Position numbers and translations under genes: made by a program. The notes below the pieces were generated by a model. That model was given only the letters and a program-made list of their open reading frames with translations, searched no databases and was not told the DNA's origin. From positions 682,001-746,000 of the forward strand of contig OY282455.1 in assembly GCA_958296195.1 (NCBI GenBank): DNA of 64,000 nt, given 5' to 3'. Source of the stretch: an uncultured Pseudomonadales bacterium (GTDB lineage: Bacteria > Pseudomonadota > Gammaproteobacteria > Pseudomonadales > Azotimanducaceae). This document shows, piece by piece, positions 1 through 16,919 of the stretch. Position 1 is the stretch's first letter. The number at the start of each line of letters is the position of its first letter.

Positions 1-80
1 GGGGAGGGATGAAGGGAGGGGAGGGGGAAGGGAGGGAAGGGGAAGGGAGGGAAGGGGAAGAAAGGCAGAGGGAAAGAAAG
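1..80. repeat. purine-rich microsatellite (GGGA/GGGAAG repeats)
   Basis: The first ~80 bases are almost pure G and A on the plus strand, built from irregular GGGA, GGGAAG and GGGGAAG units. It lies just upstream of the ABC exporter gene. It could be a slippage-prone tract or a G-quadruplex-forming element, or an artefact near an assembly edge. No gene overlaps it. Confidence 0.7.
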
Positions 81-187
81 TGAACGGAATGTGATGGCGG
101 CGACATCGGTGACTTTATGGTAAGTTGCGCACCGCTGAAGACTGCACAGTCCTTCCGCCGCGCACCAGCCACAAGCCCTAGAAACCC

Positions 188-2092: not shown

Positions 2093-2236
2093 AGTGTCGC
2101 TGTGGAAGTGCGCTGGAGCTGGACCCATGAGTGATCCATGCCGAAGTTGCCAAGCCTATGGGTTGCAGGTGCATTCCCCACGTTGCGCTGCCCAGCCCGC
2201 CGTTGGTGCGGCCGGCGGGCGGAGCGGCTGGGAAAG

Positions 2237-2938
2237 ATGCCTGACGCAGGGGCAAGCGACGTCACAGTGACCGAAGCTAAACTTCAAAAAGCGGCAACGG
2301 AGGGTGTACGCGAATCCCTGACCGAGCAGGCCTACGCCGCGGTCAAGCAGAAGATCATCAACCTTCAGTTCGGCCCCGGCGACTATCTGAACGTCATCAC
2401 CATTTCCGAACTGCTCGGCATAGGCCGCACACCGGTGCATCAGGCGGTGCGCCGTTTGGCCCACGAGGGCATGATCGAAATCATGCCGCGCAAGGGCATG
2501 ATCGTGAAGCCCGTGAGTCTCCATGACGTAATGCAGATTGCGGAGGTGCGGTTGGTGAACGAGCCCTACTGCGTACGCCTCGCCGCCGCAAACGCGAAAC
2601 AGAAGGACATCAGGGCGTTGGACCGCATTCTCGAGCGGGCCGGACGGGCGGCGCAAGAGAGCGACACCGAAGCCATGATGCTCGCCGACCGGGATTTCCA
2701 CTGCGCCATTTCGGGCATCGCCGGCAACAGGGTGCTGGCCGACATACTGCGGAACCTGCACGAACGCTCCTTGCGCTTCTGGTTTATTTCACTGCATCAA
2801 TCGACGCATCAAAAGGAAGTGGACAAAGAGCATTCGGACATTCTGGCGGCCATCCGCAACCACGACCCCGACGGCGCGGAACAGGCGATGCGCCGGCACA
2901 TCGAATCCTTCCGCAGCACCATCGCCCGAAACGTTTGA
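2237..2938 (+). CDS. GntR-family transcriptional regulator with FCD domain
   Basis: A FadR/VanR-type repressor of 233 residues. An N-terminal winged helix (ESLTEQAYAAVKQKI through a GIGRTPVHQAVRRL recognition segment) is followed by an all-helical FCD ligand domain that keeps likely metal-binding histidines in DRDFH, KEHSD and MRRHIES. I chose the ATG at 2237 because the upstream extension from 2138 is Arg/Cys-rich and unlike a GntR N-terminus. The gene converges on the large minus-strand hydrolase/amidohydrolase operon ending at 2982, 43 bp away. By analogy with other FCD regulators it may control that operon in response to a substrate or breakdown product; this is inference from position only. 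Confidence 0.9.
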   Translation: MPDAGASDVTVTEAKLQKAATEGVRESLTEQAYAAVKQKIINLQFGPGDYLNVITISELLGIGRTPVHQAVRRLAHEGMIEIMPRKGMIVKPVSLHDVMQIAEVRLVNEPYCVRLAAANAKQKDIRALDRILERAGRAAQESDTEAMMLADRDFHCAISGIAGNRVLADILRNLHERSLRFWFISLHQSTHQKEVDKEHSDILAAIRNHDPDGAEQAMRRHIESFRSTIARNV

Positions 2939-2981
2939 CCCCCGGCTGCCGCTCCGTGGCTGTTCGCTTCCGCCCCGGCTT

Positions 2982-5276
2982 CTAAAACCTGAATGTGTGG
3001 CTGATTTTGAAGGTGAAGTCGGTGGATGCGGTGTTGAAGCGGCGGTTTTCGTCGAAGTCCTCGGCGCCGTAGTTGAAGACCAGCACCAGTTCGCGGCCCG
3101 CTTCGGGCAACCAGCGCAACGTGCTGTTCCAGCCCAGCGTGTTGGACACGTTGTCGTATTGGGCGAAGTTCTCCCAAGACCAAGTGGAGGAGAACGCGAC
3201 GTCGCCCCTGAGCCTGAACAACCGAGTGATGAACTTCCCCTGCGGCAGATCCACATGGTTGACCTCCGCATCCAGCCCGAATTCGTAGCGGGGCGTAGGC
3301 CGCCAACTGGTGGACAGCTCCCAGATCAGGATGTCCCCGCCATAGAAACTGCCGCCATAAAGGCCCAAGCCCGCTGACAGAGGGCGTTGCGGTCCGCTTC
3401 CAAGGTAAAGGCCGATGTCGTCGTTGTTGTAGGTCCCCGGCGGCACGATGATGTCTCGGTGTATTGCAAAGGGCTCGGCCACGTTCTCCTTGCCCTGGAT
3501 GGTGCTCAACTGGAGGCTGTCGCCGGCGTGGTTCTCCAATTCCAGCAAGCGGAAGTTGAGGCTTTGCGACTGCAGGCCGCCGCCCAGCCTTTCGAAGCGT
3601 TGCGCATCGACGCCGGCGTATATCGAGCGGAGGAAATGATTGCTTGGCCGGTGCCTATAACCGAGTTCAAGCGAGTAGTTGCGCACGCCCACCCGATCGA
3701 CAAAGCCGAGCGCGGGGTTGAAGTTCTCCTCCAGCACCTTGTAGCCCACCGCTCCCCGCCAAAACTCCGTGTTGGCTAGGTGTAGGCTGAACCCGTAGGC
3801 GGCGTCCTTGCCAGTCAGCCCCTCGGTGTCGGACTGCTGGTACCAAGCCCCACCTTCAATGGTGCGGCCATTGGGGAGGCGGGTGTTCAGGTAGCGGAAA
3901 TCGGCCCCCACCAAGCTGTTGTCCAGATTGGCGGTGGGATGCCCGTTGGTCAGGATGACGCCTAGGGATGATTCCTTCAAGACCTTCATGGCCGCTCGTC
4001 CGACGAAGAGATTGCTGCGGTCAACATCGCCGAACTGGTCTTGGCGGACGTTCAGGACGCCGAAGTCCCAGCGCCCGATGCGCCCGGTCAGCTTGCCGCC
4101 GTAGTCGATGCCCACCTGTTCCCCGCTCTCGCTCAAGCCCACCCGCCGGGAGAAGAAGGGCCGTCCGTTTTCGCGGTCCGTGCGGGCGAAAGTGCTGGGG
4201 TCGTCGAATTCATCGACGCCACCGATGCGTCCGAATTCGAAGATATCGACGTCATGCAGGAAGAAGTCGCGCCGCTCCGGGAAGAACAGCCCGAACCGGG
4301 TCAAGTTGACCTGCACTTCGTCAACGGCGGTGCCGGAGAAGTCCGTGTTGACGGTGACGGCCGCGGTGATGGCTGGGGAAATACGGTAGAAGGCGTCCAA
4401 GGACGGCTCAAAGTCCTCGGCGCTGTCATTCAACAACAGGTTGCGGCGCCGGCTGAGCGCCATGCCGGGCACCAGATCCAGCCCGAACCCCTGGCCGATG
4501 TCCTGAAAGCCCACGGCATGGCCGAAACTGCTGGGGTCCTGCGAGCGATTGCGCGACATCCAACCCATTGTCTCCTGCCGGCGCGTTGCGTAGCGGGCGA
4601 AGTTGATGCCCCAAGTGCCGTTGTCCGGGTCGAAGGACAGCGTCTTGAAAGGAATGCGCATCTCCGCCACCCAGCCTTGCTCATCAATGCGCGAGCGGCC
4701 CTGCCAAATGCCCCCCCAGTCCCAGTTTTGGTTGGTGGTGTTTTGAAACAACCCGTCGTCCCGCACCCCGAAGGCGTTCAGTTCGAATATGTAGCCGCCG
4801 CGGCCCTTGTTGAACGGGTCCAGCATCAACGCAAAACGGTCATCCTGGAGTTCGGCGCCTTGCTTCATGATGAAGGCGTTGATGTCCTCGGGGCGGTCTT
4901 CAAGCATTCTGGCCGCAACGTACAGCGCATGGTCGTCATAGCCTATGTAGATGCGGGTGTTCTTGGACGGCGGGTCGTATTCGTTGGGCTCCACCTCGTG
5001 CAGGTCCACGAGCACCGCGGCCGAGCGCCAAGCCGGGTCGTCCAGCCGGCCGTCCAGCACCGGCGGCACCGGCAGTCGATTGATGCGGAACTTTTTGTCC
5101 GCCGCTCCTCTGCCCCGGCGATAGCGCATCGTCGTGACCGGAGTTAGGCGGTCCGCGCCGGGCTCGCCTTGTTCCTGCTCCGCCGCCGCGACGACCTGGG
5201 GAACGCAAAGCAAGCCCACGAGCGCCAGCGCCGCCAAGTAGCCAATCCGCTCGTTGTTTCGCGCCGCTTGTTCCAC
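2982..5276 (-). CDS. exported CBM9-like / DUF5916 outer-membrane protein
   Basis: About 764 residues. Near the N-terminus is a CBM9-like fold segment (PVLDGRLDDPAW, then IYIGYDDHALYVAARM), followed by a long region rich in alternating aromatic beta-strands ending in FKISHTFRF. A terminal Phe is typical of BAM-inserted barrels. This architecture matches DUF5916 proteins, which are presumed outer-membrane proteins of unknown ligand. A signal peptide (IGYLAALALVGLLCVPQVVAAAE) follows the GTG I chose at 5276; the frame is open to a TTG at 5423 directly after the upstream stop, so the start is uncertain. It is the last gene of the eight-gene operon and may bind or admit its substrate. Confidence 0.85.
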   Translation of the reverse strand: MEQAARNNERIGYLAALALVGLLCVPQVVAAAEQEQGEPGADRLTPVTTMRYRRGRGAADKKFRINRLPVPPVLDGRLDDPAWRSAAVLVDLHEVEPNEYDPPSKNTRIYIGYDDHALYVAARMLEDRPEDINAFIMKQGAELQDDRFALMLDPFNKGRGGYIFELNAFGVRDDGLFQNTTNQNWDWGGIWQGRSRIDEQGWVAEMRIPFKTLSFDPDNGTWGINFARYATRRQETMGWMSRNRSQDPSSFGHAVGFQDIGQGFGLDLVPGMALSRRRNLLLNDSAEDFEPSLDAFYRISPAITAAVTVNTDFSGTAVDEVQVNLTRFGLFFPERRDFFLHDVDIFEFGRIGGVDEFDDPSTFARTDRENGRPFFSRRVGLSESGEQVGIDYGGKLTGRIGRWDFGVLNVRQDQFGDVDRSNLFVGRAAMKVLKESSLGVILTNGHPTANLDNSLVGADFRYLNTRLPNGRTIEGGAWYQQSDTEGLTGKDAAYGFSLHLANTEFWRGAVGYKVLEENFNPALGFVDRVGVRNYSLELGYRHRPSNHFLRSIYAGVDAQRFERLGGGLQSQSLNFRLLELENHAGDSLQLSTIQGKENVAEPFAIHRDIIVPPGTYNNDDIGLYLGSGPQRPLSAGLGLYGGSFYGGDILIWELSTSWRPTPRYEFGLDAEVNHVDLPQGKFITRLFRLRGDVAFSSTWSWENFAQYDNVSNTLGWNSTLRWLPEAGRELVLVFNYGAEDFDENRRFNTASTDFTFKISHTFRF

Positions 5277-5423
5277 AGCAAAGATTCCGTTGCCTTTCAA
5301 TAGGTGCCTGAGCGCCCAATCCGTGGGCGTGGACCGAGCGCTAGGCCGTTGCATTTGCATCCGTGCGCAAGCGCTTGCCCGGCGTCGCGGCGCGAACAGG
5401 CGGCCCTTGGTGAAGCGGGCCAA

Positions 5424-6878
5424 TCAGCGCTGGTCGAGGACCACCGCGCCGCCTTGAATGACCATGCTTAGGTTCTGCAGGGCGTCAAGGTCCTGCAGCG
5501 GGTTCCCCTGCATCACGATCATGTCCGCGACATTGCCCACTTCAAGGGTGCCCACGTCCTCCAGCGCCAGCAGCCCTTGGGCGGCGTCCCTAGTGGCCGC
5601 CCGCAGCACCTCGGCGTTGCTTAGCCCCAAGCTCGACAGCGCCGCGACGGTGGTGCGCAAAACCTTGTCCGCCGGAAAGCCCGGCAGGTCGGAGCCCAGC
5701 ACCGGCTTGGCGCCGAACGCTATCATGGACTCGATGTTGGCCTTGGTGAGGCTGAATTCCGCAAGGTCCTCCTCGCTGGGTTCGCCGAAGGTCTCCGCCA
5801 TGATTTCCGGGGTGCCGAGGGTGATGGCCACGGCCAGCCCTTTGCGCCCGGCGGCGCCGAGCAAATCGCCGTTCTTGTCCGCCGTGATCCTTGGCGGATG
5901 GACGAAGCCGTCAACGCCCCACTCCACTAGCTGGTTCACGTCCCTGGCGTCCATGGCGTCAACCAGCGCCGGCAGGCCGACGCGGTTGGCTTCATCGATG
6001 ATGGCTTGCGCCACTTCGGGGGACAGCTTGGGGCTGTCCGGCTCGACGTAGGTGATCTTCAACTGATCGACGCCGCTTTCCGCATAGCTGCGCACCCAGG
6101 CCCGGGCTGCGTCGGCCTCGTCCACCTCCACGGCGACATGCCTGGCGCAGTACTCCCGACCGTCGCAAATGCCGACATTGGCAAGCAGGTCCGCCACCGG
6201 GGCGATGGCGGCGCACACCATGCTGCCGCTGCAGATGCCCACCGCCGGATGCCCGTCCGGGGCCGTGAAGATGCCGCCCGACACCAGAATGCGCGGGCCT
6301 TGCAGGTCGCCGCTCTTCTGCCGTTCACGCACGTCTATGATTTGCGGCCAAAAGTCCCCGGGGCTCATGATGGTGGTGAAGCCTTGCCGCAGCAGCTCGG
6401 CCAGCTTCTCCCGCATCCGCGTATCCACATACTCGGCGTACTCGGTGTCGGACTTGGGGAAGTACATGCCCATGCCCTCAAAATCGAAGGACAGGTGTAC
6501 ATGGGTATCCACCAGGCCGGGCATCAGGAAGGCGCCTTTAAGGTCGATGACGTTGGTTGCAGCGAGCGCGGCTGCGGAGGCGGCAGGCGCTTTGGCCGGC
6601 GCCGCACTGGCCGACACCTCCTGCTCGGCGGCGCCTGCCTGCGCCGGCCCGCCAAGCAAAGCGTCTCCTGCGGCGTGGATGGCCGCGATGCGGCCGTTTG
6701 CAACGACGATCGACGATACCGGAACCGTGAAGTCCTCGGTGCCGTCAAACAGCCGGGCGTTCTGGAGCACTAAGCTGTCGGCGGCTAGGCCGGCCGACCA
6801 GCCTAGCAGCGCGAAGGACAGCCCAATGATTGCGCCCAAGGGTGGCTTGGGATTTCGCTTCAGCAGTTCTTCCGGCAT
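5424..6878 (-). CDS. exported amidohydrolase-family protein with an altered metal site
   Basis: A TIM-barrel metal-dependent hydrolase related to imidazolonepropionase-like and dipeptidase-like amidohydrolases. It has a signal-like N-terminus (GAIIGLSFALLGWSAGLAADS), the HxH motif in LVDTHVHL, a candidate bridging Lys in QLKITY and a late Asp in LGSDLPGF. Where the tandem paralogue upstream has the metal-ligand His in VVAHAFS, this protein reads ALVDAMD, a His-to-Asp change, so its metal centre or activity may differ. Its linker near residues 80-105 is Ala-rich and low complexity. The ATG at 6878 has GAGGG nine bases upstream, inside the end of the preceding gene, so translation is probably coupled. 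An ATG at 6893 is an alternative. Confidence 0.88.
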   Translation of the reverse strand: MPEELLKRNPKPPLGAIIGLSFALLGWSAGLAADSLVLQNARLFDGTEDFTVPVSSIVVANGRIAAIHAAGDALLGGPAQAGAAEQEVSASAAPAKAPAASAAALAATNVIDLKGAFLMPGLVDTHVHLSFDFEGMGMYFPKSDTEYAEYVDTRMREKLAELLRQGFTTIMSPGDFWPQIIDVRERQKSGDLQGPRILVSGGIFTAPDGHPAVGICSGSMVCAAIAPVADLLANVGICDGREYCARHVAVEVDEADAARAWVRSYAESGVDQLKITYVEPDSPKLSPEVAQAIIDEANRVGLPALVDAMDARDVNQLVEWGVDGFVHPPRITADKNGDLLGAAGRKGLAVAITLGTPEIMAETFGEPSEEDLAEFSLTKANIESMIAFGAKPVLGSDLPGFPADKVLRTTVAALSSLGLSNAEVLRAATRDAAQGLLALEDVGTLEVGNVADMIVMQGNPLQDLDALQNLSMVIQGGAVVLDQR

Positions 6879-6882
6879 GGGA

Positions 6883-8295
6883 TTAGCCCTCATGTGTAGG
6901 GGTCGGCTTGGCAAGTGCGTCTTCGTCGAGCAGCATAATCAGCCCGACCGCGCCTCTGCCAAGGTATTCGTCCGTTGGCTGGCGCTTGTCGATGACGACT
7001 TCGCCGCCCTTGATGACCACGGTGGGACGAGTCGCCGCCGTCAGATCCGCAAGCGGGTCGCCGTCCAGAATGATGAGGTCGGCGAGCTTTCCTGGCGCCG
7101 CGGTGCCGACGTCGTCCGGCGTAAACGGGTGCTTGGCGGCCTGCCCTGTCATCATCTCAATGACCTCCATCCTGCTGAATCCGCTGGCCAGCAGCACACG
7201 CATTTCGGCCTCTATCAAAGGCCGCGGGTCGGCCGGCGTGCCGATGCCTTCAAAATCGGTGCCGAACAGCAAGGGTGTGCCGGCTGCGGCGAAGGCTTGC
7301 AGGCTGGGACCGATGTTGCGCTGGATGTTGCGGCTTCGCCTCGCCACGTCGAGCTGCGCAGTCGATTTCGGGCCTGGGTCGGCGAAGCGCACCGTGGTCG
7401 TCATCGAAATGTTGCGCTGGCTGAGCAGTTCCGGCAGGTGCTCGCCGCTTGCCGTCAGCAGCCTGCCGCCGCGGCCGGTCGCCGCATGCACCAAGCCGTC
7501 AACGCCAGCTTTGACCACCGCCACTACGTCCGCGACGCTGAAGGCATGGGCCACCACCGGCACTCCGAGCTTGTGGCCTTCATCGACCACGGCCTGCAGT
7601 ACCTCCTGGTTCATGCGCTCCTCGCCAAACCCTCCGTCATAGACCAGCTTCAGGCCGTCAACGCCGCCCGCCACTATGTCCCGTGCACATTGTCGGGCGG
7701 TTTCCGGGTCATCGGTGTTGCAGGTCAGGTGCTCGATGCACCACTCGTTGCCATTGCAAACGGTGACCGCGGGGTGCCCCCGCGGCGCGGTGAACAAGCG
7801 CCCGGAGACGTACATGCGCGGTCCTAGAAGCTCCCCAGCGGCAACCTGGTCCCGAATCTCCACCACGAAGGGCATGAAGCCGCCCGGGTCCATGATGGTG
7901 GTGACGCCGGCGTCCAGAAAGCTCAGCAGCCGGTCGGCGAGCCGCTCCGCCCGGAATTCGGCCATGTCGGCGTCGCTGGTGATGGCCACGTCCGGGCTTG
8001 GGTAACCGCCGGAACCGCCTTGGGTCCAAAACTCCACCGTGGAATGCACATGCAACTCCGCAAGCCCCGGCATCACCGTCTTGCCCTCGGCGTCGATGAC
8101 CATAGCGCCGGCGCTGGCGCCGGACCCGTCAACGGAGACGATGCGATCCCCAGTCACCACGATGGTGGCGCCCTCCACTGGGGCGGCGCTGGTGCCGTCT
8201 ATGAGCCGTGCGTTCCTGATGACCAGATCGGCTGATGTCGCCAGCGGTGTGGCCAACAGAATTAGGCATGCCAATAGGGATGTTTTGCGCCGCAT
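6883..8295 (-). CDS. exported amidohydrolase-family protein
   Basis: A 470-residue metal-dependent hydrolase with a clear signal peptide (MRRKTSLLACLILLATPLATSA). Motifs are the HxH in ELHVHS, Lys in GLKLVY, His in VVAHAFS, a second His in GLVHAA and Asp in LFGTDF, so the binuclear metal site looks complete. It hydrolyses an amide-like or cyclic bond, probably in the periplasm; the substrate is unknown. The start is well set by GGAGG six bases before ATG 8295. It is a tandem paralogue of the next gene, sharing the HPAV segment and overall layout. The 129 bp between it and the upstream lipoprotein gene hold no gene, so it could have its own promoter. Confidence 0.92.
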   Translation of the reverse strand: MRRKTSLLACLILLATPLATSADLVIRNARLIDGTSAAPVEGATIVVTGDRIVSVDGSGASAGAMVIDAEGKTVMPGLAELHVHSTVEFWTQGGSGGYPSPDVAITSDADMAEFRAERLADRLLSFLDAGVTTIMDPGGFMPFVVEIRDQVAAGELLGPRMYVSGRLFTAPRGHPAVTVCNGNEWCIEHLTCNTDDPETARQCARDIVAGGVDGLKLVYDGGFGEERMNQEVLQAVVDEGHKLGVPVVAHAFSVADVVAVVKAGVDGLVHAATGRGGRLLTASGEHLPELLSQRNISMTTTVRFADPGPKSTAQLDVARRSRNIQRNIGPSLQAFAAAGTPLLFGTDFEGIGTPADPRPLIEAEMRVLLASGFSRMEVIEMMTGQAAKHPFTPDDVGTAAPGKLADLIILDGDPLADLTAATRPTVVIKGGEVVIDKRQPTDEYLGRGAVGLIMLLDEDALAKPTPTHEG

Positions 8296-8424
8296 TTTTC
8301 CTCCTTGCTTGGCCGCTGCTCGGCCGGCGCTAGTACCCGATGCCTCGCATGTTCGAGGACTTGCTTGGCGACCGTCCGCCAGTCGGGGTCTGGGCGACGA
8401 CTCTTTGAATGCTTGGGTCGCGCA

Positions 8425-8865
8425 TTAGCGCGGCTGGAGGCGGAAAATGCCGCCGTCCGCGACAAAGCTCAGGCCGTCGGCCGGATCCTCCTCGTACTTT
8501 GCGATGTAGGCGTCAACCACCCTGCGCCGCTCATCGGCGTCATCGACCTCAACCGCCGCAAGGGAATAGACGGCGTCGTCCATGCGCACGCGGACATTGC
8601 CGTCCGCCCGGATGTAGCTTATCCAATTCTTCCCCTCCGGGTCACCGGCGACATACAGCGCCGGGCCAACGCCCACCGCCCAGACGTTGACCGAGTAAGG
8701 GTCGGCCGGACGCACCTCAAGCTGCACGGCGTCCGGAACGCCTTCCCAAACAGCCGGCGCGGCCATGTTTTGGCCGGAAAGGGCGCCGCCAGCGAAGGGG
8801 CCTATCGGGTCTGCACAGCCGAACAGCGCCAAAACGCCGGCGGCTAGGATTTTGCGTGGGTGCAT
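8425..8865 (-). CDS. small lipoprotein, weakly similar to flavin/DUF2255-like split-barrel proteins
   Basis: A 146-residue predicted lipoprotein. The N-terminus MHPRKILAAGVLALFGC carries a lipobox with Cys near residue 17. The body contains a stretch (GNVRVRMDD through DAYIAKYEED) that reminds me of DUF2255/deazaflavin nitroreductase-like split barrels, in which a small beta-barrel binds a cofactor; this likeness is by eye and weak. The ATG at 8865 is preceded by AAGGAG. It lies 13 bases downstream of the TonB receptor stop, so the two are surely cotranscribed. A periplasmic or outer-membrane helper in the operon is likely. Confidence 0.75.
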   Translation of the reverse strand: MHPRKILAAGVLALFGCADPIGPFAGGALSGQNMAAPAVWEGVPDAVQLEVRPADPYSVNVWAVGVGPALYVAGDPEGKNWISYIRADGNVRVRMDDAVYSLAAVEVDDADERRRVVDAYIAKYEEDPADGLSFVADGGIFRLQPR

Positions 8866-8878
8866 TGCTTGAAACTCC

Positions 8879-11224
8879 TTACTCCCAAGTGCGGGAAACT
8901 GTGATGCCGTAGCTGACCGGCTGCGCCAAGCCGCCGGCCGTGTAGGTCGCCCCTTCCGGGTCAACGCCCAAGAAGGTGTTGAACACGAAGCCCTCCAAGG
9001 CGCCGCCGATCTGGAAATTCAGCTCCTGCTCATTGGTGAGGTTCTTGCCCCAGACGGAGATGCGCCAGTTGTTGATGCTGTAGGAGACGTCGGCGTTCAG
9101 CTTGGCGTAATCGGTCAGCGGGGTGACGCCGACTTCCGCTGCTTCGTCCTGGCCGAAGGTCTTTTCGGAGCGGTAGGACCAGTTCAGGGCGAAAGCCAGC
9201 TCCCCTTGGCCGACCGCCACGGCGTACATGAGGTCCATATTGACGGCGTGCTTGGGCGTCTGCTCAATGCGGTTGCCGCTTAAGTCATCCTCGCCGCTCA
9301 CCAATTCGTCATAGACCGCATCGGTCAACGAGTAGCTCAGGCTGGCGGTCAGGTTTTGCGAGAGCAGCGCCGTCGCCTCCATCTCCAAGCCCTTGATGGT
9401 GGCCTTGCCGGCGTTCTGCTGCGAGGTGAACGGGAACCCGGCCTCGTTAACGGTGATGACGCCGGTCACCAAGTCCGTGTAGTCCGTGTAGTAGCCGGTG
9501 AGGTTGAACTGGGCGCGATTCTCCCAGAAGCGTGTCTTCACGCCGAGCTCGTAGTTGAGCGCGTACTCCGGGTCGTAGCCGCGCACCGCCGCCTCGGGGT
9601 TGGTGTCCACGGCGAAGCCGCCGGAGTTGTAGCCCCGGGCGATGGAGGCATATACAAAGAAGCTGTCGAAGCCGCCCCAGTCCTCCAACGTGAAGTCGTA
9701 GGTGGCCTTCGGGGTGAAGGCGGTCCAGGAATCCTTGTAGGTTACGTCGTAGGGCTGCAACGCAAAGGGGTTGAAGATGCCGTAGTCCCCATAGGTGAAG
9801 GAGCGGCCCTTGCGCTTGTCCTTGGTCCAGCGCATCCCGACGGTCAGGTTGGAGATGTCGTTCAGCGCCCAGCCGACTTGCCCGAACGCGGCGAAGCTGT
9901 TGGTATCGACGTCGGCCACGCCGCTGGTGTTGAAGCCGACCGGCTGGTTGGGCGAATCCGCCGGCGCCAGCAGGGTGTTGGCGCCGCCCGGCGGGCAGGC
10001 GCCGAACATTTCGCAATTGGCGTTGATCAGGGCGGTGTCCGACAGCGGATGCCACTGCGCCACGACATTGTTCAATTCATAACGCTCGATGTCCAAGTAG
10101 TACAGGCCCGTCGTGTAGGTGAGACGATCCGTCTGCCCGCTCAGGCGCAGTTCCTGGGAGAAGGTCGTGTCCTCTGGATAGCGATTGAACAGAATGTACA
10201 CCTCCGGGGCGCCGGCCGCCGCCTGGTCCGGCCCCTCCGCCTTGCTGTCGTTGGTGTGCCAAGCGGTGATTGAGGTGACGGTGGAGTTGGCCAGCCAGTC
10301 GGTGTCCCACTCCAGGCGCAACGTCGCGCCGTAGGCTTCCCGGTCGGTGCCGCCGTCGAAGGAGTTGGTGACCTTGTCGTCCTCGCCCACCAAGGTGTTG
10401 GGAATTAGATTGGGAACGTTGGAGCCTTCCAGAACGAAAAACGGAATGCCGCCCGAGTTGTCCTTCATGTAGCTGAAGGTCAGGTTCGCCTCCAGACCGG
10501 CGTCGGCAAAGTAGCGCAGCTTGCTGCGCATCGACCATTGGTCGATGTCGCCCATGTCATTGCCGGTGGTGAGGTTGTCGGCCCAGCCGTCGGTGTTCTC
10601 CGTCTTGACGGCCACGGAGCCGAACAGATTGTCCGCCAACGGGCCGCTGACCTTGCCTTTGAAGATCATCTGGTTCCAGCGGCCGTAGGTGAACTCCAAG
10701 GCGCCATCAACGTTTTCGTCCGGCTTCTCGGTGACCACGTTGATGGCCCCGCCCACCACGTTGCGCCCGAACAGGGTGCCTTGCGGGCCGCGCAGCACCT
10801 CGATGCGCTCCACGTCGAACAGATCCACGCCCATGTCCGAGCCGGCGTAGAACACCTCGTCGATGAAAAGGGAAACGCCGCTGTCTTCGCCGGCGGTGCT
10901 GCCGCCGCCGTTGCCGCGAATGAAAAGCTCCGGGTCGGAGCGATCCACCGTCTCGAACGCAAAGCCGACGACGCGGTTGCCCATTTCCTGAATGCCGTCG
11001 ATGCCGTAGTCTTCCAAATACTGGCCGTCCAAGGCGGTGACCGAGATGGGCGTAGTTTGCAGGTTGGTCTCCCGCTTCTCGGCGGTGACGATGATCTCCT
11101 CAAGGCCGTAGCCTGCGGGGGCCGAATCGTCCTGCGCCCAAGCCGAAGCCGCAACAAGCACGGCGCAAGCGCCCAGCCCCCTCAGCAGCAGATGCTGCAA
11201 AGCCAGTCTTTCCTTCCTGTTCAT
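8879..11224 (-). CDS. TonB-dependent outer-membrane receptor
   Basis: A 781-residue receptor. A signal peptide ending SAWAQ is followed by a TonB-box-like EEIIVTAEKRE, a plug with the typical GPQGTLFGRN and GGAINVVTEKP motifs, and a beta-barrel to the C-terminus (SYGITVSRTWE). It should take up a ligand across the outer membrane using TonB/ExbBD energy. The ATG at 11224 has AAGGAG upstream; the longer open frame to 11458 runs antisense-like over the neighbour's end and is not used. Set between three exported hydrolases and two amidohydrolases, it probably imports the substrate or products of those enzymes rather than a classic siderophore, but that is inference. Confidence 0.95.
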   Translation of the reverse strand: MNRKERLALQHLLLRGLGACAVLVAASAWAQDDSAPAGYGLEEIIVTAEKRETNLQTTPISVTALDGQYLEDYGIDGIQEMGNRVVGFAFETVDRSDPELFIRGNGGGSTAGEDSGVSLFIDEVFYAGSDMGVDLFDVERIEVLRGPQGTLFGRNVVGGAINVVTEKPDENVDGALEFTYGRWNQMIFKGKVSGPLADNLFGSVAVKTENTDGWADNLTTGNDMGDIDQWSMRSKLRYFADAGLEANLTFSYMKDNSGGIPFFVLEGSNVPNLIPNTLVGEDDKVTNSFDGGTDREAYGATLRLEWDTDWLANSTVTSITAWHTNDSKAEGPDQAAAGAPEVYILFNRYPEDTTFSQELRLSGQTDRLTYTTGLYYLDIERYELNNVVAQWHPLSDTALINANCEMFGACPPGGANTLLAPADSPNQPVGFNTSGVADVDTNSFAAFGQVGWALNDISNLTVGMRWTKDKRKGRSFTYGDYGIFNPFALQPYDVTYKDSWTAFTPKATYDFTLEDWGGFDSFFVYASIARGYNSGGFAVDTNPEAAVRGYDPEYALNYELGVKTRFWENRAQFNLTGYYTDYTDLVTGVITVNEAGFPFTSQQNAGKATIKGLEMEATALLSQNLTASLSYSLTDAVYDELVSGEDDLSGNRIEQTPKHAVNMDLMYAVAVGQGELAFALNWSYRSEKTFGQDEAAEVGVTPLTDYAKLNADVSYSINNWRISVWGKNLTNEQELNFQIGGALEGFVFNTFLGVDPEGATYTAGGLAQPVSYGITVSRTWE

Positions 11225-11264
11225 TGTCCGTCTCTCCTTGCAGGTTCTCAAATGTTTTTGGCGC

Positions 11265-12797
11265 TCAACCGTTCTCCGCCAAAGGCGGGGATTCGGCATC
11301 CGCCGAGCTAGGCTGCCGCCTCTGCAAGCCCATCGACTCCACGGCCACCGCGGCGGCCTTGCCGAAGGCGTAGGAATTGCAGTGGTGCGACTGCTCCATG
11401 TGCCAGCGCCGATTCGCCGCCGGCTCGATGCGATTGAAGATTTGCATGAAATGGCCAAGCAGGGAGAACTCGTCCCCTGGCTCGAAGGCGGTCTGCCCCA
11501 TGTAGGTGGCGGTGGCGCCGCCCACGTCCACCAAAAGGTCCACGCGGTGGTCGAAGTTCCAGTCCACCTCCTGCATCAGGCCATAGCTGCTGTTGTCGAA
11601 GTCCGCGTAGCGCTCCGTGCCGGGCTCGCCGATGTTGCAGGCGTTGGCCGCATGCATGTGGTTGACGGCGGACTCGTACAGACGGCTGGCAAACTCGAAT
11701 TCGCCGTTGGCGATGACGCCGGGCAGCTTGCAGAAGTTGCCCTCGCCGCCGCATTCCTCGTCGGCGGCGCAGGCGGTGGCGCCATCGGCGGCGCAGAAGC
11801 CCCGTTCGTAGGTGGTGGGCAGGTTGCAGGCGCGATGCACGTCCCAGAAGAAGGGGCCGCCGGTGAAGGATTGGTAGTCGATGATGTCGTCCAGGCCGTG
11901 GAACAGCACCGGCCCGATGATGGCGTTGGTGCCCATGCTGCAGGCCATGGCGCCGAAGGCGGGTTCGCCGGCCATTTCCTCGTGAATCCACGCCATGATG
12001 GCGGCGACGCGACGCGTGGTCTCGCGGATGTTGGAGCCTTCGGGCTGGGTGCGGGTCAGAAAGCCCCAGCCTTCGGATTCGCCGGATTCGGGATCCAGGG
12101 AGAAGCGGAAGCCATCCGCCCAGCGCACCATCGCCGTGCGCACTTCGGCGCGCTGTTCGAGATCCTTGGCGGTGAGCACGGACCACTGGGTGCCGCCGCC
12201 GCCATCCTGCAGGTAAATCAGCGGGGCGTCCCGATAGCCATCGTCCGACCAGGACAGGTAGCCGCCCATTTGGTCCGCAACGAAGGCCAGCATCGGCTTG
12301 GACCGCTCCGGGTCGCGCCCATGCGTCACCACCATCTCCAGCTCAGGGCTTTGCACTCCTTCCGGACCTTCGCCGCCCGAGGACAGCACTTCGCCCGTTT
12401 CCGGGTCAATGGCCTCCAGGGGAACGGGTCCCGAGCCGAAGTTCCGGGTGGGAACGGCGCATTGCGCATAATCGGCGCAGATCTCCTTGCAGCTGTAGCG
12501 CACCCAGTAGTCCGGCATCCAGCCGCCCGGTGCGGTGGCCGGTTCGCCTTGCTCGACATGGAAGGCGGAGGCGGGATCCATCGGGTCCGGGATGGCGCAG
12601 ATCTGCACCAAGCCCTCTAAGGGAGAGGTGGCCGGCGACGCATCGGCGACGGCGGCTTCCGACGCCGGCGCGGTCTCCTGCATCGGTGCAGGCGCTTCGG
12701 GTGCTTGGCCATCGCAGGCCGCCAGCAGCCCCAACAGTGCCAAGGGCAGCGCCTTAAGGCACCATCTTGTTGGAGCTTTGAATCCATATTCAATCAT
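11265..12797 (-). CDS. exported alpha/beta-hydrolase-like lipoprotein, paralogue 1 of 3
   Basis: About 510 residues. The N-terminus ends in LLGLLAACDG, a lipobox, followed by a Pro/Ala-rich linker. The core keeps an oxyanion-type Gly run (YLQDGGGG), a nucleophile-elbow-like ACSMGTNA with Ser in the GxSxG position, and a late His in QSHHCNSY. These suggest an alpha/beta-hydrolase, although I do not recognise a named family. Cysteines come in two clusters, CKEICADYAQC near the start and CAADGATACAADEEC in the middle, fitting disulfides in an exported enzyme. The ATG at 12797 has GGAGAG upstream. It is the third gene of the operon and a clear paralogue of the next two upstream genes. Confidence 0.8.
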   Translation of the reverse strand: MIEYGFKAPTRWCLKALPLALLGLLAACDGQAPEAPAPMQETAPASEAAVADASPATSPLEGLVQICAIPDPMDPASAFHVEQGEPATAPGGWMPDYWVRYSCKEICADYAQCAVPTRNFGSGPVPLEAIDPETGEVLSSGGEGPEGVQSPELEMVVTHGRDPERSKPMLAFVADQMGGYLSWSDDGYRDAPLIYLQDGGGGTQWSVLTAKDLEQRAEVRTAMVRWADGFRFSLDPESGESEGWGFLTRTQPEGSNIRETTRRVAAIMAWIHEEMAGEPAFGAMACSMGTNAIIGPVLFHGLDDIIDYQSFTGGPFFWDVHRACNLPTTYERGFCAADGATACAADEECGGEGNFCKLPGVIANGEFEFASRLYESAVNHMHAANACNIGEPGTERYADFDNSSYGLMQEVDWNFDHRVDLLVDVGGATATYMGQTAFEPGDEFSLLGHFMQIFNRIEPAANRRWHMEQSHHCNSYAFGKAAAVAVESMGLQRRQPSSADAESPPLAENG

Positions 12798-14136
12798 TGC
12801 GTCTCTCCAGGCCATAGCGTTTTTTGGCGGCCGCGGGACGTAGGCGGGGCTTCAGCCCCATACCTTCAATGGCGATCCGCACGGCATCGCCATTGTCGAA
12901 CGCCCGGCAGTGGTGGGAGTCGCCGAAGGCGTGCCAGCGGCGGTTCTCCGGCGGTTCAATCCGATTGTATATCTGCATGAAGTGGCCGAGCAACGCCGCT
13001 TCATCGCCGCCTTCCAGCTCCCCGTCTATGGGGAAACCGCCCACATCGACCACGAAGTCCGTCCGGTGGTCGATGCGCCAGTCCGCCCCGGCGCGGAAGC
13101 CGAAGCTGCCTTCGTCAAAGGCCGGATCGCGGGGCGCGTCGGGATTGGCCGACGATTGCAGTATCTGACAGTTTTGGGTGGCGTAAACATGGTTGATGAC
13201 CGACTCGTAAAGCCATTCCTCGCCTTGCTCAATGGACTTGGGATAGCGGCAAAAACTGTTGTTGTCCACATCCGCACCCGGACAATCCACATCGTTGGCG
13301 CAGCGGGTGACGCCGTCCAGACTGCAATAACCGTGGTCATAGGCGCCCACGCCGCAGGCGCGGTTGATGTCCCAGAAGAACGGGCCGCCGGTGACCAGTT
13401 GGTAGTCGATGGCGTCGTCCAGCCCGTCCCAAACCACGGGGCCGAAAATGGCGTTGGTACCCATGCTGCACGACATGGTGCCAAATGGCTGGCCCTCCGC
13501 TAGGTTGGCCTGCACCCAAGCCAACAGCGCCGCCACCCTGGAGATCATGTTGGGGACGCTGGACGGTGCCGCCGAGGTGCGCGTCAGGTAGCCCCAGCCC
13601 TCCCAACCGGGGGGCCAGGGGATGTCGAAGACGAAGCCGTCCTGCCAATCCGCCATGACGGTGCGCACCTGCGCCTTGTGCTCGAGAAAATCCGCCGTGT
13701 CGGTGGGGAAGTAGGAACCGCCGCCGCCGTGCTGAATGAACATCAGCGGTTCCGCTTCAAAGCCGTCGGCGGTCCAAGCCAAATGCCCGCCCATGCCGTC
13801 CACCACAAAGGCTAGAGATGGCTTGGGCAGGCTGGACTGGCGAAAGTGGGAGAGTTCCTGCCCGCTGTTGCGCTGCACCGCCGGCGCCGTGCATTGCCGC
13901 CAGTCCGCGCAGACTTGGCGGCAGGCGTAGCGCACCCAATAGTCGCCGTGCTCATTCGGTTCGCCCTTGGTGACCGCAAAGGCGGAGGAAGGTGCCTGCG
14001 GATCGGCAACTTCGCAAATCTGGATGCGCTGGGCCAGCGCATCAAGGGAAGCCGCGCCGCCCGTGCTCGCCGCCAACAGGGACGCCGCCGCTGCGAGCCA
14101 CCTTGAGAAGCTGGCCAGCCGGGTCAAAACTCCCAA
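12790..14136 (-). CDS. exported alpha/beta-hydrolase-like protein, paralogue 2 of 3
   Basis: About 448 residues, sharing with its two neighbours the QHGGGG, SCSMGTNA and DSHHCRAF motifs and the two Cys clusters (CRQVCADWRQC; CSLDGVTRCANDVDC). The likely start is TTG at 14136: it follows AGGAGG at ideal spacing and gives a clean signal peptide (LAAAASLLAASTGGAA). A GTG at 14166 overlapping the upstream stop is the alternative. Unlike the other two it has no lipobox Cys and is probably soluble in the periplasm or secreted. Its end overlaps the start of the next gene by 8 bp, which implies translational coupling. Confidence 0.8.
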   Translation of the reverse strand: MGVLTRLASFSRWLAAAASLLAASTGGAASLDALAQRIQICEVADPQAPSSAFAVTKGEPNEHGDYWVRYACRQVCADWRQCTAPAVQRNSGQELSHFRQSSLPKPSLAFVVDGMGGHLAWTADGFEAEPLMFIQHGGGGSYFPTDTADFLEHKAQVRTVMADWQDGFVFDIPWPPGWEGWGYLTRTSAAPSSVPNMISRVAALLAWVQANLAEGQPFGTMSCSMGTNAIFGPVVWDGLDDAIDYQLVTGGPFFWDINRACGVGAYDHGYCSLDGVTRCANDVDCPGADVDNNSFCRYPKSIEQGEEWLYESVINHVYATQNCQILQSSANPDAPRDPAFDEGSFGFRAGADWRIDHRTDFVVDVGGFPIDGELEGGDEAALLGHFMQIYNRIEPPENRRWHAFGDSHHCRAFDNGDAVRIAIEGMGLKPRLRPAAAKKRYGLERRND

Positions 14137-14165
14137 GCGCAGTCCTCCTCTTTGCGTCAGAGACA

Positions 14166-15527
14166 CTAGCGCCTCTCCAACTCCATGCCGTCGATGACCA
14201 GCCCGATGCTCCAGCCCTTGTCGAAGGATTGGCAGTGGTAGGAGTTGTGGAACGCCGTCCAATGCCGATTCCTGGCTGGCCTGATGGCGTTGAAGATGGG
14301 GAAGAAGTGGCCCATTTGGGAATAGGAGTCGTCCCGTTCCCCATCAAGCTCGTTCTTGCCGCCCAAGTCCACCACCAAGTCGATCTCGTGGTCCACCTCC
14401 CAATCGCCCTCGGTGAAGGCCATGCTGTTCTCGTCAAAGGGCGGATAGGGTTCCGCGTTGTTCTCCACATCCAAAATATGGCAGGCGTCCGTGGCCAGCG
14501 GGTGGTTGGCGAACGCCTCGTAGAGAAACTCGTCCCCCGAGCCCATGACGCTGGTGAAGTCGCAGTAGTTGCCTTGGCCGCCGCATTGGCCGTTTTCGGT
14601 GCAGCGGGTCACGCCGTCGTTGGCGCAGTAGCCCAGATCGTGTTGGCGGCGCCCGCAGCCGGCGTTGATGTCCCAGATGAAGGGGCCGCCGGTCAGCAAC
14701 TGATAGTCGATGATTTCGTCCAATCCGTACCAATAGACCGGGCCGAAGGTGGCGTTGGTGCCCACGCTGCAGGCGGCGGTGCCGAACAGGCCGCCGCCGG
14801 TTAGGTGCTCGTGCGTCCAGGCGATGACGGCCGCCATGCGCCGCGTGAGCTTTTTGTGGCCGGCCGGTGCCGGGCTCGGTCGGGTCAGCCAGCCCCAGCC
14901 TTCATCACCGGTGATGTAGGTGGTGGAGATCACGAAGCCGTCCGCCCAGGCGGACATCGCCGTGCGCACGTTGGTTTGCGCCTCCAGCATGTCGGCGACC
15001 TGGGGCAGGTAGTCGGTGCCGCCACCGCCGGATTGCAGGAAGATGGTCTTGTCGTTGGCGGCGTCATCGGTGCTGAACGCCAAGTGGCCGCCCATGCCGT
15101 CCACCACAAAGGCGATTTGCCGCTTGGGCAGGCCGGTTTGGCGGCTGTGCTCAATGACTTCGCCGCTCCTTGGATCGTAGGCATCCGCGGTGCATTGGCG
15201 CCAATCCGCACAGGCTTGGGCGCAGGCGTAGCGAACCCAATAGTCGCCATCTTCGTTCGGTTCGCCTCGTTCGACCGCAAAGGCCAACCCTGGATCCGTT
15301 GGTTCGGGAATTTCGCAGACTTGCAGCAAGCCGGCCAGTTCCGCTGGGCTAAGGGCGGCACCGGTTGCAGGCACCTTGATGGCGGCGCTCTCGGCGGGAG
15401 CTTCGGCGGCTGCCGACGGCCCCTTGCTGGCGCTTGGCTGCTCCGCTCCGCAAGCCGACAGCAGGAAAATCCACAAAGCCCCGACAATGGCCTTTCCCAA
15501 AACTGAACCTCTTATCACCATCGTCAT
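14166..15527 (-). CDS. exported alpha/beta-hydrolase-like lipoprotein, paralogue 3 of 3, first gene of the operon
   Basis: About 453 residues with a lipoprotein signal ending LLSACG. It carries the family motifs LQSGGGG, ACSVGTNA and NSYHCQSF and the Cys clusters CAQACADWRQC and CANDGVTRCTENGQC. It is co-linear with the two following paralogues along its length apart from the linker after the lipobox. ATG 15527 was chosen because the signal peptide starts there; the frame is open further upstream to 15590, past the promoter's expected start site. As promoter-proximal gene it should be the most expressed of the three. The reaction is unknown; ester or amide hydrolysis is the family expectation. 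Confidence 0.8.
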   Translation of the reverse strand: MTMVIRGSVLGKAIVGALWIFLLSACGAEQPSASKGPSAAAEAPAESAAIKVPATGAALSPAELAGLLQVCEIPEPTDPGLAFAVERGEPNEDGDYWVRYACAQACADWRQCTADAYDPRSGEVIEHSRQTGLPKRQIAFVVDGMGGHLAFSTDDAANDKTIFLQSGGGGTDYLPQVADMLEAQTNVRTAMSAWADGFVISTTYITGDEGWGWLTRPSPAPAGHKKLTRRMAAVIAWTHEHLTGGGLFGTAACSVGTNATFGPVYWYGLDEIIDYQLLTGGPFIWDINAGCGRRQHDLGYCANDGVTRCTENGQCGGQGNYCDFTSVMGSGDEFLYEAFANHPLATDACHILDVENNAEPYPPFDENSMAFTEGDWEVDHEIDLVVDLGGKNELDGERDDSYSQMGHFFPIFNAIRPARNRHWTAFHNSYHCQSFDKGWSIGLVIDGMELERR

Positions 15528-15580
15528 CGTGCTTCCCCGGAAGTCCTCAATCGACCCCAATATGCTACTGCCACGCCAGT

Positions 15581-15608
15581 AAAATATCACAGCCGATTAG
15601 ATTGTCAA
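15581..15608 (-). promoter_or_regulatory. sigma-70-like promoter of the hydrolase/receptor operon
   Basis: On the minus strand a perfect -35 TTGACA (15608-15603) is separated by 16 bases from TATTTT (15586-15581), a 4/6 match to the -10 consensus. Transcription would start near 15574, giving a leader of about 47 bases before ATG 15527. It lies in the 163-bp gap to the divergent bolA-like gene. Confidence 0.55.
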
Positions 15609-15690
15609 CACCCGACCACCATTCTATCTTGTTCCGGAAAGTCTGGTGCGGCGTCGCCGCCGACGCAGGTTCCAAGGAGGTTCAACAGGC

Positions 15691-16059
15691 ATGTCCGTCG
15701 CCGCAAGCATCGAGCGCAAACTGGTCCAAGGGTTGAATTTGATGCATCTTGAGGTCGTCAACGAGAGCGGCAACCACAATGTTCCGCCGGGCGCCGAGTC
15801 GCACTTCAAGGTGGTGGTCGTGGCCGGCGAATTCGATGGCGAACGCCGGCTCGCGCGGCATCGGCGCATCAATGCCTTGCTTGCGGAGGAACTGGCCGGG
15901 GAGGTTCACGCCTTGGCCATTCATGCCTACACTGCGGAGGAATGGCGGCGGCGCTTTGGCGCGGCGCCGCTGTCGCCGCCGTGCTTGGGCGGGGAAAAGC
16001 GCGCATCGACGCCGGGGAACAGCCTTAGGGCGCCCACAACCGACCGGGGCGAATCCTGA
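15691..16059 (+). CDS. bolA: BolA-family protein
   Basis: A 122-residue protein whose first ~90 residues match BolA: MSVAASIERKL, then HLEVVNESGNHNVPPGAESH, then RHRRINALLAEELAGEVHAL and AYTAEEW. BolA proteins partner monothiol glutaredoxins in Fe-S/iron handling and influence cell shape and biofilm. The C-terminal ~30 residues are an extra tail. AAGGAGG ten bases before ATG 15691 fixes the start and rejects the Arg-rich upstream extension. It is followed at once by trhO, and is divergent from the hydrolase operon. Confidence 0.93.
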   Translation: MSVAASIERKLVQGLNLMHLEVVNESGNHNVPPGAESHFKVVVVAGEFDGERRLARHRRINALLAEELAGEVHALAIHAYTAEEWRRRFGAAPLSPPCLGGEKRASTPGNSLRAPTTDRGES

Positions 16060-16103
16060 CCATGGGCCATTCGGGGGCTGCGCCGAGCTCGGCAGGGGGA
16101 GCA

Positions 16104-16919
16104 ATGGAAGTCGCCGCCTTCTACCGCTTTGTGGACCTTGACGACCTTGAGGCGCTGCGCTTCAGCCTGCACGCCCGCGCCGCCGACCTAGGGCTCAAGG
16201 GCACCGTCTTGCTGGCGGCGGAAGGCGTGAACGGCGGGCTGTGCGGCGGGCGAGCGCAGCTTGACGCCTGGCTGGACGAACTGCGTCTGGACGAGCGTTT
16301 CCGCGGCCTGCCGGTTTCCTATTCCTCTGCGGCCCTTGGCAATCCGGTCTTTGCTCGGCTGAAGGTGCGGGTGCAGCCGGAAATCGTCAGTTTCGGCCAG
16401 CCCAACTGCCATCCGGCTGACCGGGCTGGAACGCCGGTCGATGGGGTGGATTGGAATGCTCTTCTGGACGACCCCGAAGTCGTCGTGGTCGATGTGCGCA
16501 ACCGTTACGAGATCGCCATTGGCGCATTTCCCGACAGCTTGGACCCCGGCACCAGCGCCTTCCGCGAATTTCCCAGCTTTGTGCGGCGGGCGCTGGACCC
16601 CGCTAGAGACCGCTCAGTGGCCTTGTACTGCACCGGCGGCATTCGCTGCGAAAAGGCGTCCGCGCATCTCCTGAACCAAGGTTTTGAGAACGTCCATCAA
16701 CTCAACGGCGGCATTCTTGGCTATCTGGCGAATGCGCCCGACTCGGAAAACCGCTGGCAAGGCGAGTGCTTTGTGTTCGATCAGCGGGTGTCCGTGGACC
16801 GCCAATTCCGCCAAGGACGGCATCGGCTATGCCCGGCTTGCGGCCAGCCCCTTGGCCTTGGGGATGCGCGGTTGGCCCAATGTGGGCAGGGCACCGCCTG
16901 CCCGGTCTGCTGCGACTAA
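16104..16919 (+). CDS. trhO: tRNA uridine(34) hydroxylase TrhO (rhodanese-domain protein)
   Basis: About 271 residues. An N-terminal acylphosphatase-like part (TVLLAAEGVNGGLCGG) precedes a rhodanese domain (VVVVDVRNRYEIAIGAFP) with the active-site loop CTGGIRCEK. This is the YceA/TrhO layout, which makes 5-hydroxyuridine at the tRNA wobble position using molecular oxygen. A C-terminal Cys pair (CPACGQ, CPVCCD) closes the protein, as in many TrhO. The ATG at 16104 has GGGGGAG just upstream; a start at 16062 is possible but adds a Gly/Ala/Ser-rich extension. Confidence 0.93.
   Translation: MEVAAFYRFVDLDDLEALRFSLHARAADLGLKGTVLLAAEGVNGGLCGGRAQLDAWLDELRLDERFRGLPVSYSSAALGNPVFARLKVRVQPEIVSFGQPNCHPADRAGTPVDGVDWNALLDDPEVVVVDVRNRYEIAIGAFPDSLDPGTSAFREFPSFVRRALDPARDRSVALYCTGGIRCEKASAHLLNQGFENVHQLNGGILGYLANAPDSENRWQGECFVFDQRVSVDRQFRQGRHRLCPACGQPLGLGDARLAQCGQGTACPVCCD

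Follow-up and report, generated by a model that had tools for sequence, protein, structure and literature searches.

An operon of putative exported serine hydrolases, a TonB-dependent receptor and amidohydrolases in an uncultured Azotimanducaceae bacterium

Introduction

Systems are known that combine capture of a compound by a TonB-dependent receptor with hydrolysis by exported enzymes. The TonB-dependent carbohydrate scavenging loci of Xanthomonas and aquatic bacteria, for example, reportedly bring receptors and degradative enzymes together. The locus considered here is an eight-gene operon of an uncultured Pseudomonadales bacterium of the family Azotimanducaceae (assembly GCA_958296195.1, contig OY282455.1). 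It lies in a window of 64,000 nt, the whole stretch of DNA analyzed, corresponding to positions 682001–746000 of a 4.31 Mb single-contig genome (G000 below); other coordinates are those of the window unless a genome or locus is named. The operon encodes three putative exported serine hydrolases (HydA, HydB, and HydC), a TonB-dependent receptor, a small lipoprotein-like protein, two putative exported amidohydrolases (genes ah1 and ah2), and a DUF5916 protein. Unlike the carbohydrate scavenging loci, it has no glycoside hydrolase among the ten operon-region proteins scanned, and searches of Pfam, NCBIfam, and PDB sequences did not find the hydrolase family itself.

Two groups of described systems come closest. 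In the tannase family, according to passages of PMC7070470, the catalytic Ser and His are linked through a disulfide of neighboring cysteines; one tannase has Ser206, Asp439, and His485, with Cys205 and Cys486. A passage of PMC6461665 gives S225, D492, and H528 for MHETase, with a disulfide between C224 and C529. Lasso-peptide isopeptidase clusters, as described in parts of PMC9266682, include a TonB-dependent transporter, sigma/anti-sigma pairs, and a GntR-like gene, and their isopeptidases are of the prolyl-oligopeptidase type, with a beta-propeller. In the present system, as in these clusters, a putative exported serine hydrolase is encoded beside a TonB receptor and, at another locus, FecR as well; no prolyl-oligopeptidase-type protein was found in the operon, which has amidohydrolases instead. 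An earlier note on this DNA (the original prediction) knew of no described system of such composition, and none turned up in the open-licence literature under indirect search terms.

Three hydrolase-like paralogs of an apparently rare family

The genes hydA (14166–15527, 453 aa), hydB (12790–14127, 445 aa), and hydC (11265–12815, 516 aa, or from the ATG at 12797) are on the minus strand, and their products have 44–49% mutual identity, in agreement with the paralogy claimed for them earlier. HydA has an LLSAC at its N-terminus that we take to be lipobox-like, and HydC a similar LLAAC. Twelve cysteines are invariant in all 11 family sequences aligned. CS and HC are likewise invariant (11/11), with several invariant Asp residues between them, giving the order CS-D-HC; an oxyanion-like GxGG is also present. 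In HydB, C220-S221 (13470–13465) is part of a nucleophile-elbow-like xCSxG, H406-C407 (12912–12907) is near the C-terminus, and the candidate acid, D361 (13047–13045), is at the end of a predicted strand. The corresponding candidates are S254 (14768–14766), D387 (14369–14367), and H431 (14237–14235) in HydA, where Ser and His are each adjacent to a Cys, and C292-S293 (11942–11937), D430 (11528–11526), and H478-C479 (11384–11379) in HydC. By analogy with tannases and MHETase, Cys220 and Cys407 of HydB may form a disulfide.

HydA–C share with tannases, feruloyl esterase B (FaeB), and MHETase the C-S, D, H-C order, an insert between Ser and Asp, and probable export. The Asp-to-His spacing (45 in HydB, 44 in HydA, and 48 in HydC) is near the values of 46, 36, and 40 derived from residue numbers in the passages of PMC7070470 and PMC6461665. 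The Ser-to-Asp distance differs: 140 residues separate the two in HydB, and the PMC6461665 numbering puts them 267 apart in MHETase. The insert of HydA–C is Cys-rich, unlike that of tannases, FaeB, or MHETase. The Pfam tannase profile, presumably PF07519, gave no match in the 11 family members listed to E = 10 (a range in which HMMER filters drop most matches above 0.1), nor in HydA–C at E = 0.1. Because of this, the family is not filed with the tannases; the likeness is one of residue pattern only.

Other searches were similarly empty. HydA–C had no match above chance in Pfam or NCBIfam, the best being a Pfam match of hydA at E = 0.05, below its cut-off. The 11 members together touched four Pfam families, one to three members each, at E values of 0.05–7.3, and no NCBIfam model. 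Against PDB sequences, a 3-sequence profile gave 0 rows, an 11-sequence profile 6, and a single 125-residue stretch 3, all at E 0.95–2.1 and all unrelated proteins.

The family looks very rare, with representatives in 3 of 206 genomes of the taxonomic family and in one Spirochaetia. It was found in 2 of 58 relatives, counting the genome itself, and sampling of the order, class, and phylum turned it up in 1 of 390, 1 of 369, and 1 of 398 genomes, each time the genome of origin; these sets overlap, and the large ones score few candidates per genome. Within the genus, two of nine searched genomes have it, which goes halfway toward the absence from related genomes that the original prediction had named as telling against it. 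A pattern scan of GTDB 220 contigs, which relies on short conserved peptides and which remote relatives may escape, gave four hydrolase loci in three genomes: two in a sister species, one in another Pseudomonadales (the third of the 206), and one in a Spirochaetia. This was the only one of 148 genomes of its class with the hydrolase; the gene there (locus L016, 9893–12295) is followed on the same strand by an enolase-superfamily-like gene, named by eye. No relatives were found on the viral contigs or plasmids searched.

Two further copies in G000, at 666.8 and 2815 kb, bring the total to five at three loci. In a tree rooted on the two outside copies, HydA–C group together (support 0.98), apart from the remaining copies, which make up a second group (1.0). 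At each of the three loci the nearest copy is 1.4–2.4 kb from a receptor centre; 6–9% of positions would be expected within 2–3 kb of one at random.

The TonB-dependent receptor and its relatives

The operon receptor (8879–11224, minus strand) has a plug (PF07715, 9.3e-13) and a barrel (PF00593, 3.2e-37), both above cut-off, and no N-terminal signaling domain was listed in the Pfam scan. There are 70 receptor-barrel matches in the G000 genome, of which 69 were compared, the 70th being dropped because it shares a 1102-residue frame with another. Among these, the operon receptor and the receptor of a second hydrolase locus, with the order FecR-receptor-hydrolase (hyd4), are mutual best matches (48% identity, pair support 0.97). 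The hydrolase copy at 2815 kb is convergent with a receptor gene from a different clade.

Two further receptors, at 2686 and 4074 kb, come next in relatedness and join those of the operon and the hyd4 locus in a clade of four (support 1.0). The one at 2686 kb is near an amidase and two metallo-beta-lactamase-fold proteins. It is also just before a GntR-type gene with 25% identity to that of the window, and genes resembling a Rieske oxygenase and fumarylacetoacetate hydrolase were noted there by eye. The receptor at 4074 kb is accompanied, again by eye, by amidohydrolase-like and major facilitator superfamily (MFS) genes, but without a set of this kind.

Operon structure and conservation in a sister species

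The eight open reading frames are co-directional on the minus strand (15590–2982), behind a sigma-70-like promoter (15581–15608, minus strand; TTGACA, 16 nt, TATTTT) that agrees with the consensus at 10 of 12 bases. The sister genome (G001) has the same two hexamers and a spacer of the same length, which differs by two changes. Five promoter-like sites were found in the region 2000–16200, against 1.9 ± 1.3 in shuffled sequences. Terminator-like sites were not in excess (10 found, 12.6 expected). The original prediction's description of co-directional genes with short gaps or overlaps behind one TTGACA promoter holds, with several start codons corrected. The most likely start of hydA is the ATG at 15527 rather than the GTG at 15590, since the latter is upstream of the expected transcript start. 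Likely starts for the others are TTG 14127 (hydB), 12815 or 12797 (hydC), ATG 11224 (receptor), ATG 8865 (small lipoprotein), 8295 (ah1), 6893 or 6878 (ah2), and near TTG 5300 (DUF5916). With these starts, rather than those first listed for the open reading frames, hydA and hydB are 38 bp apart, hydB and hydC overlap by 26 or 8 bp, and gaps of 40, 13, and 129 bp follow hydC, the receptor gene, and the lipoprotein gene, respectively; ah1 and ah2 overlap by 11 bp or are separated by 4 bp, and the gap before the DUF5916 gene is about 123 bp. Export of the products is putative, as read by eye from N-termini and lipoboxes.

In G001 the order is hydA, hydB, hydC, receptor, lipoprotein, a remnant of ah1, and ah2, as in the window, and the core without ah1 is kept at 88–97% protein identity. 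At the DNA level, 8193–16018 matches at 95% and 5383–6960 at 89%. Ratios of nonsynonymous to synonymous substitution rates (dN/dS) are 0.21 for hydA, 0.16 for hydB, 0.13 for hydC, 0.29 for the receptor, 0.21 for the lipoprotein, 0.24 for ah2, and 0.15 for both DUF5916 and hyd4. With values of 0.13–0.29, all eight genes are under purifying selection. Of the eight-gene set originally proposed, then, the three hydrolases, receptor, lipoprotein, and ah2 are kept together in the sister species, but not the DUF5916 gene or an intact ah1. The G001 homology stops 41 bp beyond the ah2 stop codon, where an opposite-strand gene read as lpxD follows, and the DUF5916 ortholog (86.9%) is at another locus (G001: 246–248 kb). 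In the G001 operon ah1 is reduced to its two ends (locus L013, 15804–15977), with about 1.23 kb of its middle lost, in frame as judged from tblastn coordinates. The idea that one species simply lost ah1 and the other ah2 was considered; it is weakened by the presence of an ah1-like gene (74%) beside DUF5916 in G001.

Synonymous divergence from G001 is uneven along the operon: 0.07–0.14 from hydA to the receptor (8879–15527) and 0.25–0.50 for the lipoprotein, ah2, and DUF5916 (2982–8865). It is as if the front half of the operon had been exchanged more recently between the lineages.

Amidohydrolases and other genes of the region

Metal-dependent amidohydrolases of this kind bind metal through HxH, K, H, H, and D. 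All of these (with HVH for HxH) are present in the product of ah1 (6883–8295, minus strand; PF01979, 2.5e-22), a putative exported enzyme whose nearest PDB entry is 3mtw, the L-arginine carboxypeptidase Cc2672 (1.4e-35). In ah2 (5424–6893, minus strand; PF01979, 1.8e-16), also putatively exported, one metal-ligand His position is Asp. The codon at 5960–5958 is GAC, versus CAC (His) in the sister ortholog, a single-base difference that may be a lesion, a functional shift, or an assembly error. Both proteins are closest to Cc2672 and prolidase-like structures in the PDB, and in NCBIfam to the Xaa-Pro dipeptidase equivalog NF051886, at 154.5 and 125.1 bits, far under its cut-off of 500.

Profile relatives of the amidohydrolases with E below 1e-100 number six in G000 and three in G001, so they too occur in two of the nine genus genomes; the best in the other seven is at 3.4e-45. 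Five of the six in G000 are within 3.5 kb of a receptor centre, and the sixth is 12 kb away. Other amidohydrolase-receptor loci were seen. In an orthologous pair of loci, present in both genomes (locus L069, 2839–10540, and locus L072, 8376–16071), genes resembling sarcosine oxidase by eye, a receptor gene, and an ah1-related amidohydrolase gene are in tandem. FecI-like, FecR-like, receptor, and two amidohydrolase genes make up another locus. In locus L070 (42–6656), a FecR-like gene, a receptor gene, and two amidohydrolase genes are followed by aminotransferase-like and ureide-type genes, by eye. These loci are as suggestive of nitrogen compounds as of aromatics.

The small lipoprotein-like protein (8425–8865, minus strand, 146 aa) matches PF10012 (DUF2255) at 4e-5, with 24.3 bits against a cut-off of 29.8. 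Its family has matches in 161 of the 206 related genomes. It was tried and rejected as a marker for the same module elsewhere, since an operon-like receptor was never directly beside it in 12 of 12 chosen neighborhoods; in one (locus L059), a distant receptor (29%) is one gene away. Another stretch, of G000 (locus L055, 2300–6959), has genes resembling type I CRISPR-associated proteins by eye. The last gene of the operon (2982–5300, minus strand) encodes a DUF5916 protein with a CBM9-like domain; PF19313 (1.5e-8, 34.3 bits against a cut-off of 22.6) and PF06452 (2.9e-9) are both above cut-off.

A GntR/FCD regulator gene (2138–2938, plus strand; PF07729, 8.6e-30; PF00392, 6.9e-14) does converge on the far end of the operon, as had been described. 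The further suggestion that it regulates the operon is unsupported, because the gene is in a segment that G001 lacks, and it is not assigned to the system.

A wider cluster of about 31 kb

The operon forms one end of a larger gene cluster, some 31 kb long, that extends beyond the window, as a block at 666.8–681.1 kb of G000 is followed by an inserted segment and then by the DUF5916 gene and the rest of the operon. The equivalent G001 block (244–263 kb; 90.6–93.8% DNA identity), on whose copies the profile searches were run, encodes the 74% ah1-like protein, DUF5916, a UbiD decarboxylase (PF01977, 5e-33), an MFS carrier (PF07690), a glutaredoxin-domain protein with a sub-threshold peroxidase-related part, a cupin-like protein (also sub-threshold), a platelet-activating factor (PAF)-acetylhydrolase-like protein, an amidase (PF01425, 1e-92), FecR, a receptor, and hyd4. 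All are on the same strand, apart from overlapping opposite-strand reading frames taken as spurious. The 3.8 kb segment between block and operon (G000: 681143–684981), which interrupts the cluster, is absent from G001, where 168 bp are found between the same neighbors. This segment, which reaches into the window (1–2981), contains the GntR gene and an ABC-transporter-like gene, the latter named by eye. The operon and the hyd4 block are about 0.9 Mb apart in G001.

Possible function

In the proposed scheme, the receptor would import a scarce compound with an ester or amide bond, or pieces of it. HydA, HydB, and HydC, two of them probably lipoproteins, would act as exported serine hydrolases at the outer membrane and in the periplasm, cleaving by a Ser-Asp-His triad. 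A Cys-Cys bridge like that of tannases and MHETase would join the Ser and His loops of this triad. The putatively exported amidohydrolases might next act on the product at an amide or peptide-like bond, and the MFS carrier and UbiD-type decarboxylase of the wider cluster could carry an aromatic acid onward. For the general scheme, TonB capture plus exported cleavage by disulfide-locked serine hydrolases and metallo-amidohydrolases, the chances seem evenly balanced. The UbiD and MFS genes favor an ester or amide of an aromatic acid over other substrate classes, though at odds well short of even. A more specific and more novel reading, to which we give a probability of roughly 35%, is that HydA–C may represent a previously undescribed family of exported serine hydrolases with a tannase-like, disulfide-locked CS-D-HC site but no detectable homology in sequence to tannases, either an extreme outlier or convergent, and that the three enzymes act as a set at the surface with a co-evolved receptor on a specific aromatic ester or amide. 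The original idea of capture, hydrolysis, and import of a specific compound is supported in part, by the conserved co-directional unit under purifying selection between two genomes and by the second receptor-hydrolase pair; the DUF5916 gene and an intact ah1 are not part of the unit in the sister genome.

The hydrolase fold of HydA–C is suggested by one of two AF2 models of the family. Both models put Ser, Asp, and His at strands in alpha/beta hydrolase order. Foldseek gave one match below 0.001 for the first, a lipase-esterase, and alpha/beta hydrolases by title made up 48 of 50 rows in the best 50 of 596 matches; the other two rows, titled PaL, were not placed. Several observations weigh against the general scheme, beginning with the models themselves. 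They are poor, with mean pLDDT (predicted local distance difference test) values of 43.6 and 40.5. Matches to the first have TM-scores of 0.24–0.33 on the query and root mean square deviations of 8–17 Å, and for the second no match fell below E 0.001 and the matches listed included essentially no hydrolases. No Pfam, NCBIfam, or PDB sequence match backs hydrolysis by HydA–C, nor did hhalign match the family to any of four ordinary alpha/beta hydrolases. D361 as the catalytic Asp of HydB is our choice, a judgement because several Asp residues are invariant. With ah1 gutted in the sister operon and ah2 missing one metal-ligand His here, neither amidohydrolase looks indispensable. Finally, the amidohydrolase group also occurs by a receptor with sarcosine oxidase genes (by eye), and by an aminotransferase-like gene, which suggests amino-acid-like rather than aromatic substrates.

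Such neighbors lend themselves to natural-product or peptide salvage like that of the lasso-peptide isopeptidase clusters, in which the receptor would import a modified peptide for the exported hydrolases to open and for prolidase-like amidohydrolases to trim further. The FecR-receptor-hydrolase order of the second locus recalls the make-up of those clusters, the amidohydrolases resemble Xaa-Pro dipeptidase and arginine carboxypeptidase models, and genes that by eye look like sarcosine oxidase precede a related receptor-amidohydrolase pair. However, no prolyl-oligopeptidase-type protein was found by Pfam or NCBIfam among the ten proteins scanned, and the UbiD decarboxylase of the cluster has no obvious fit to peptides, leaving this explanation unlikely. 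HydA–C might instead be non-enzymatic, surface ligand-binding lipoproteins serving the receptor in the manner of SusD, with all of the chemistry left to the amidohydrolases. Two of the three look like lipoproteins by eye, three divergent copies would fit a variety of ligands, and the family matches no enzyme model. SusD-type binding proteins, however, need no catalytic triad, and the invariant Ser, Asp, and His, ordered as in hydrolases, together with the oxyanion-like GxGG, make such a role decidedly doubtful. It is very improbable that the operon is a chance neighborhood of unrelated genes sharing a transcription unit and no common substrate. The DUF5916, ah1, and small lipoprotein families do occur in other contexts, but the core order is kept in two species, with a conserved promoter and purifying selection, and the receptor-hydrolase pair is repeated at a second locus with sister receptors.

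Returning to HydA–C as tannase-like serine hydrolases, the proteins carry a very specific active-site signature, in a family unnamed by the models searched or by solved structures. If they are disulfide-locked esterases, they would be a second lineage of these beside tannases, feruloyl esterases, and MHETase, the hydrolase of a polyethylene terephthalate (PET) intermediate. If true, this would make it easier to discover new biocatalysts and to work out what uncultured bacteria feed on.

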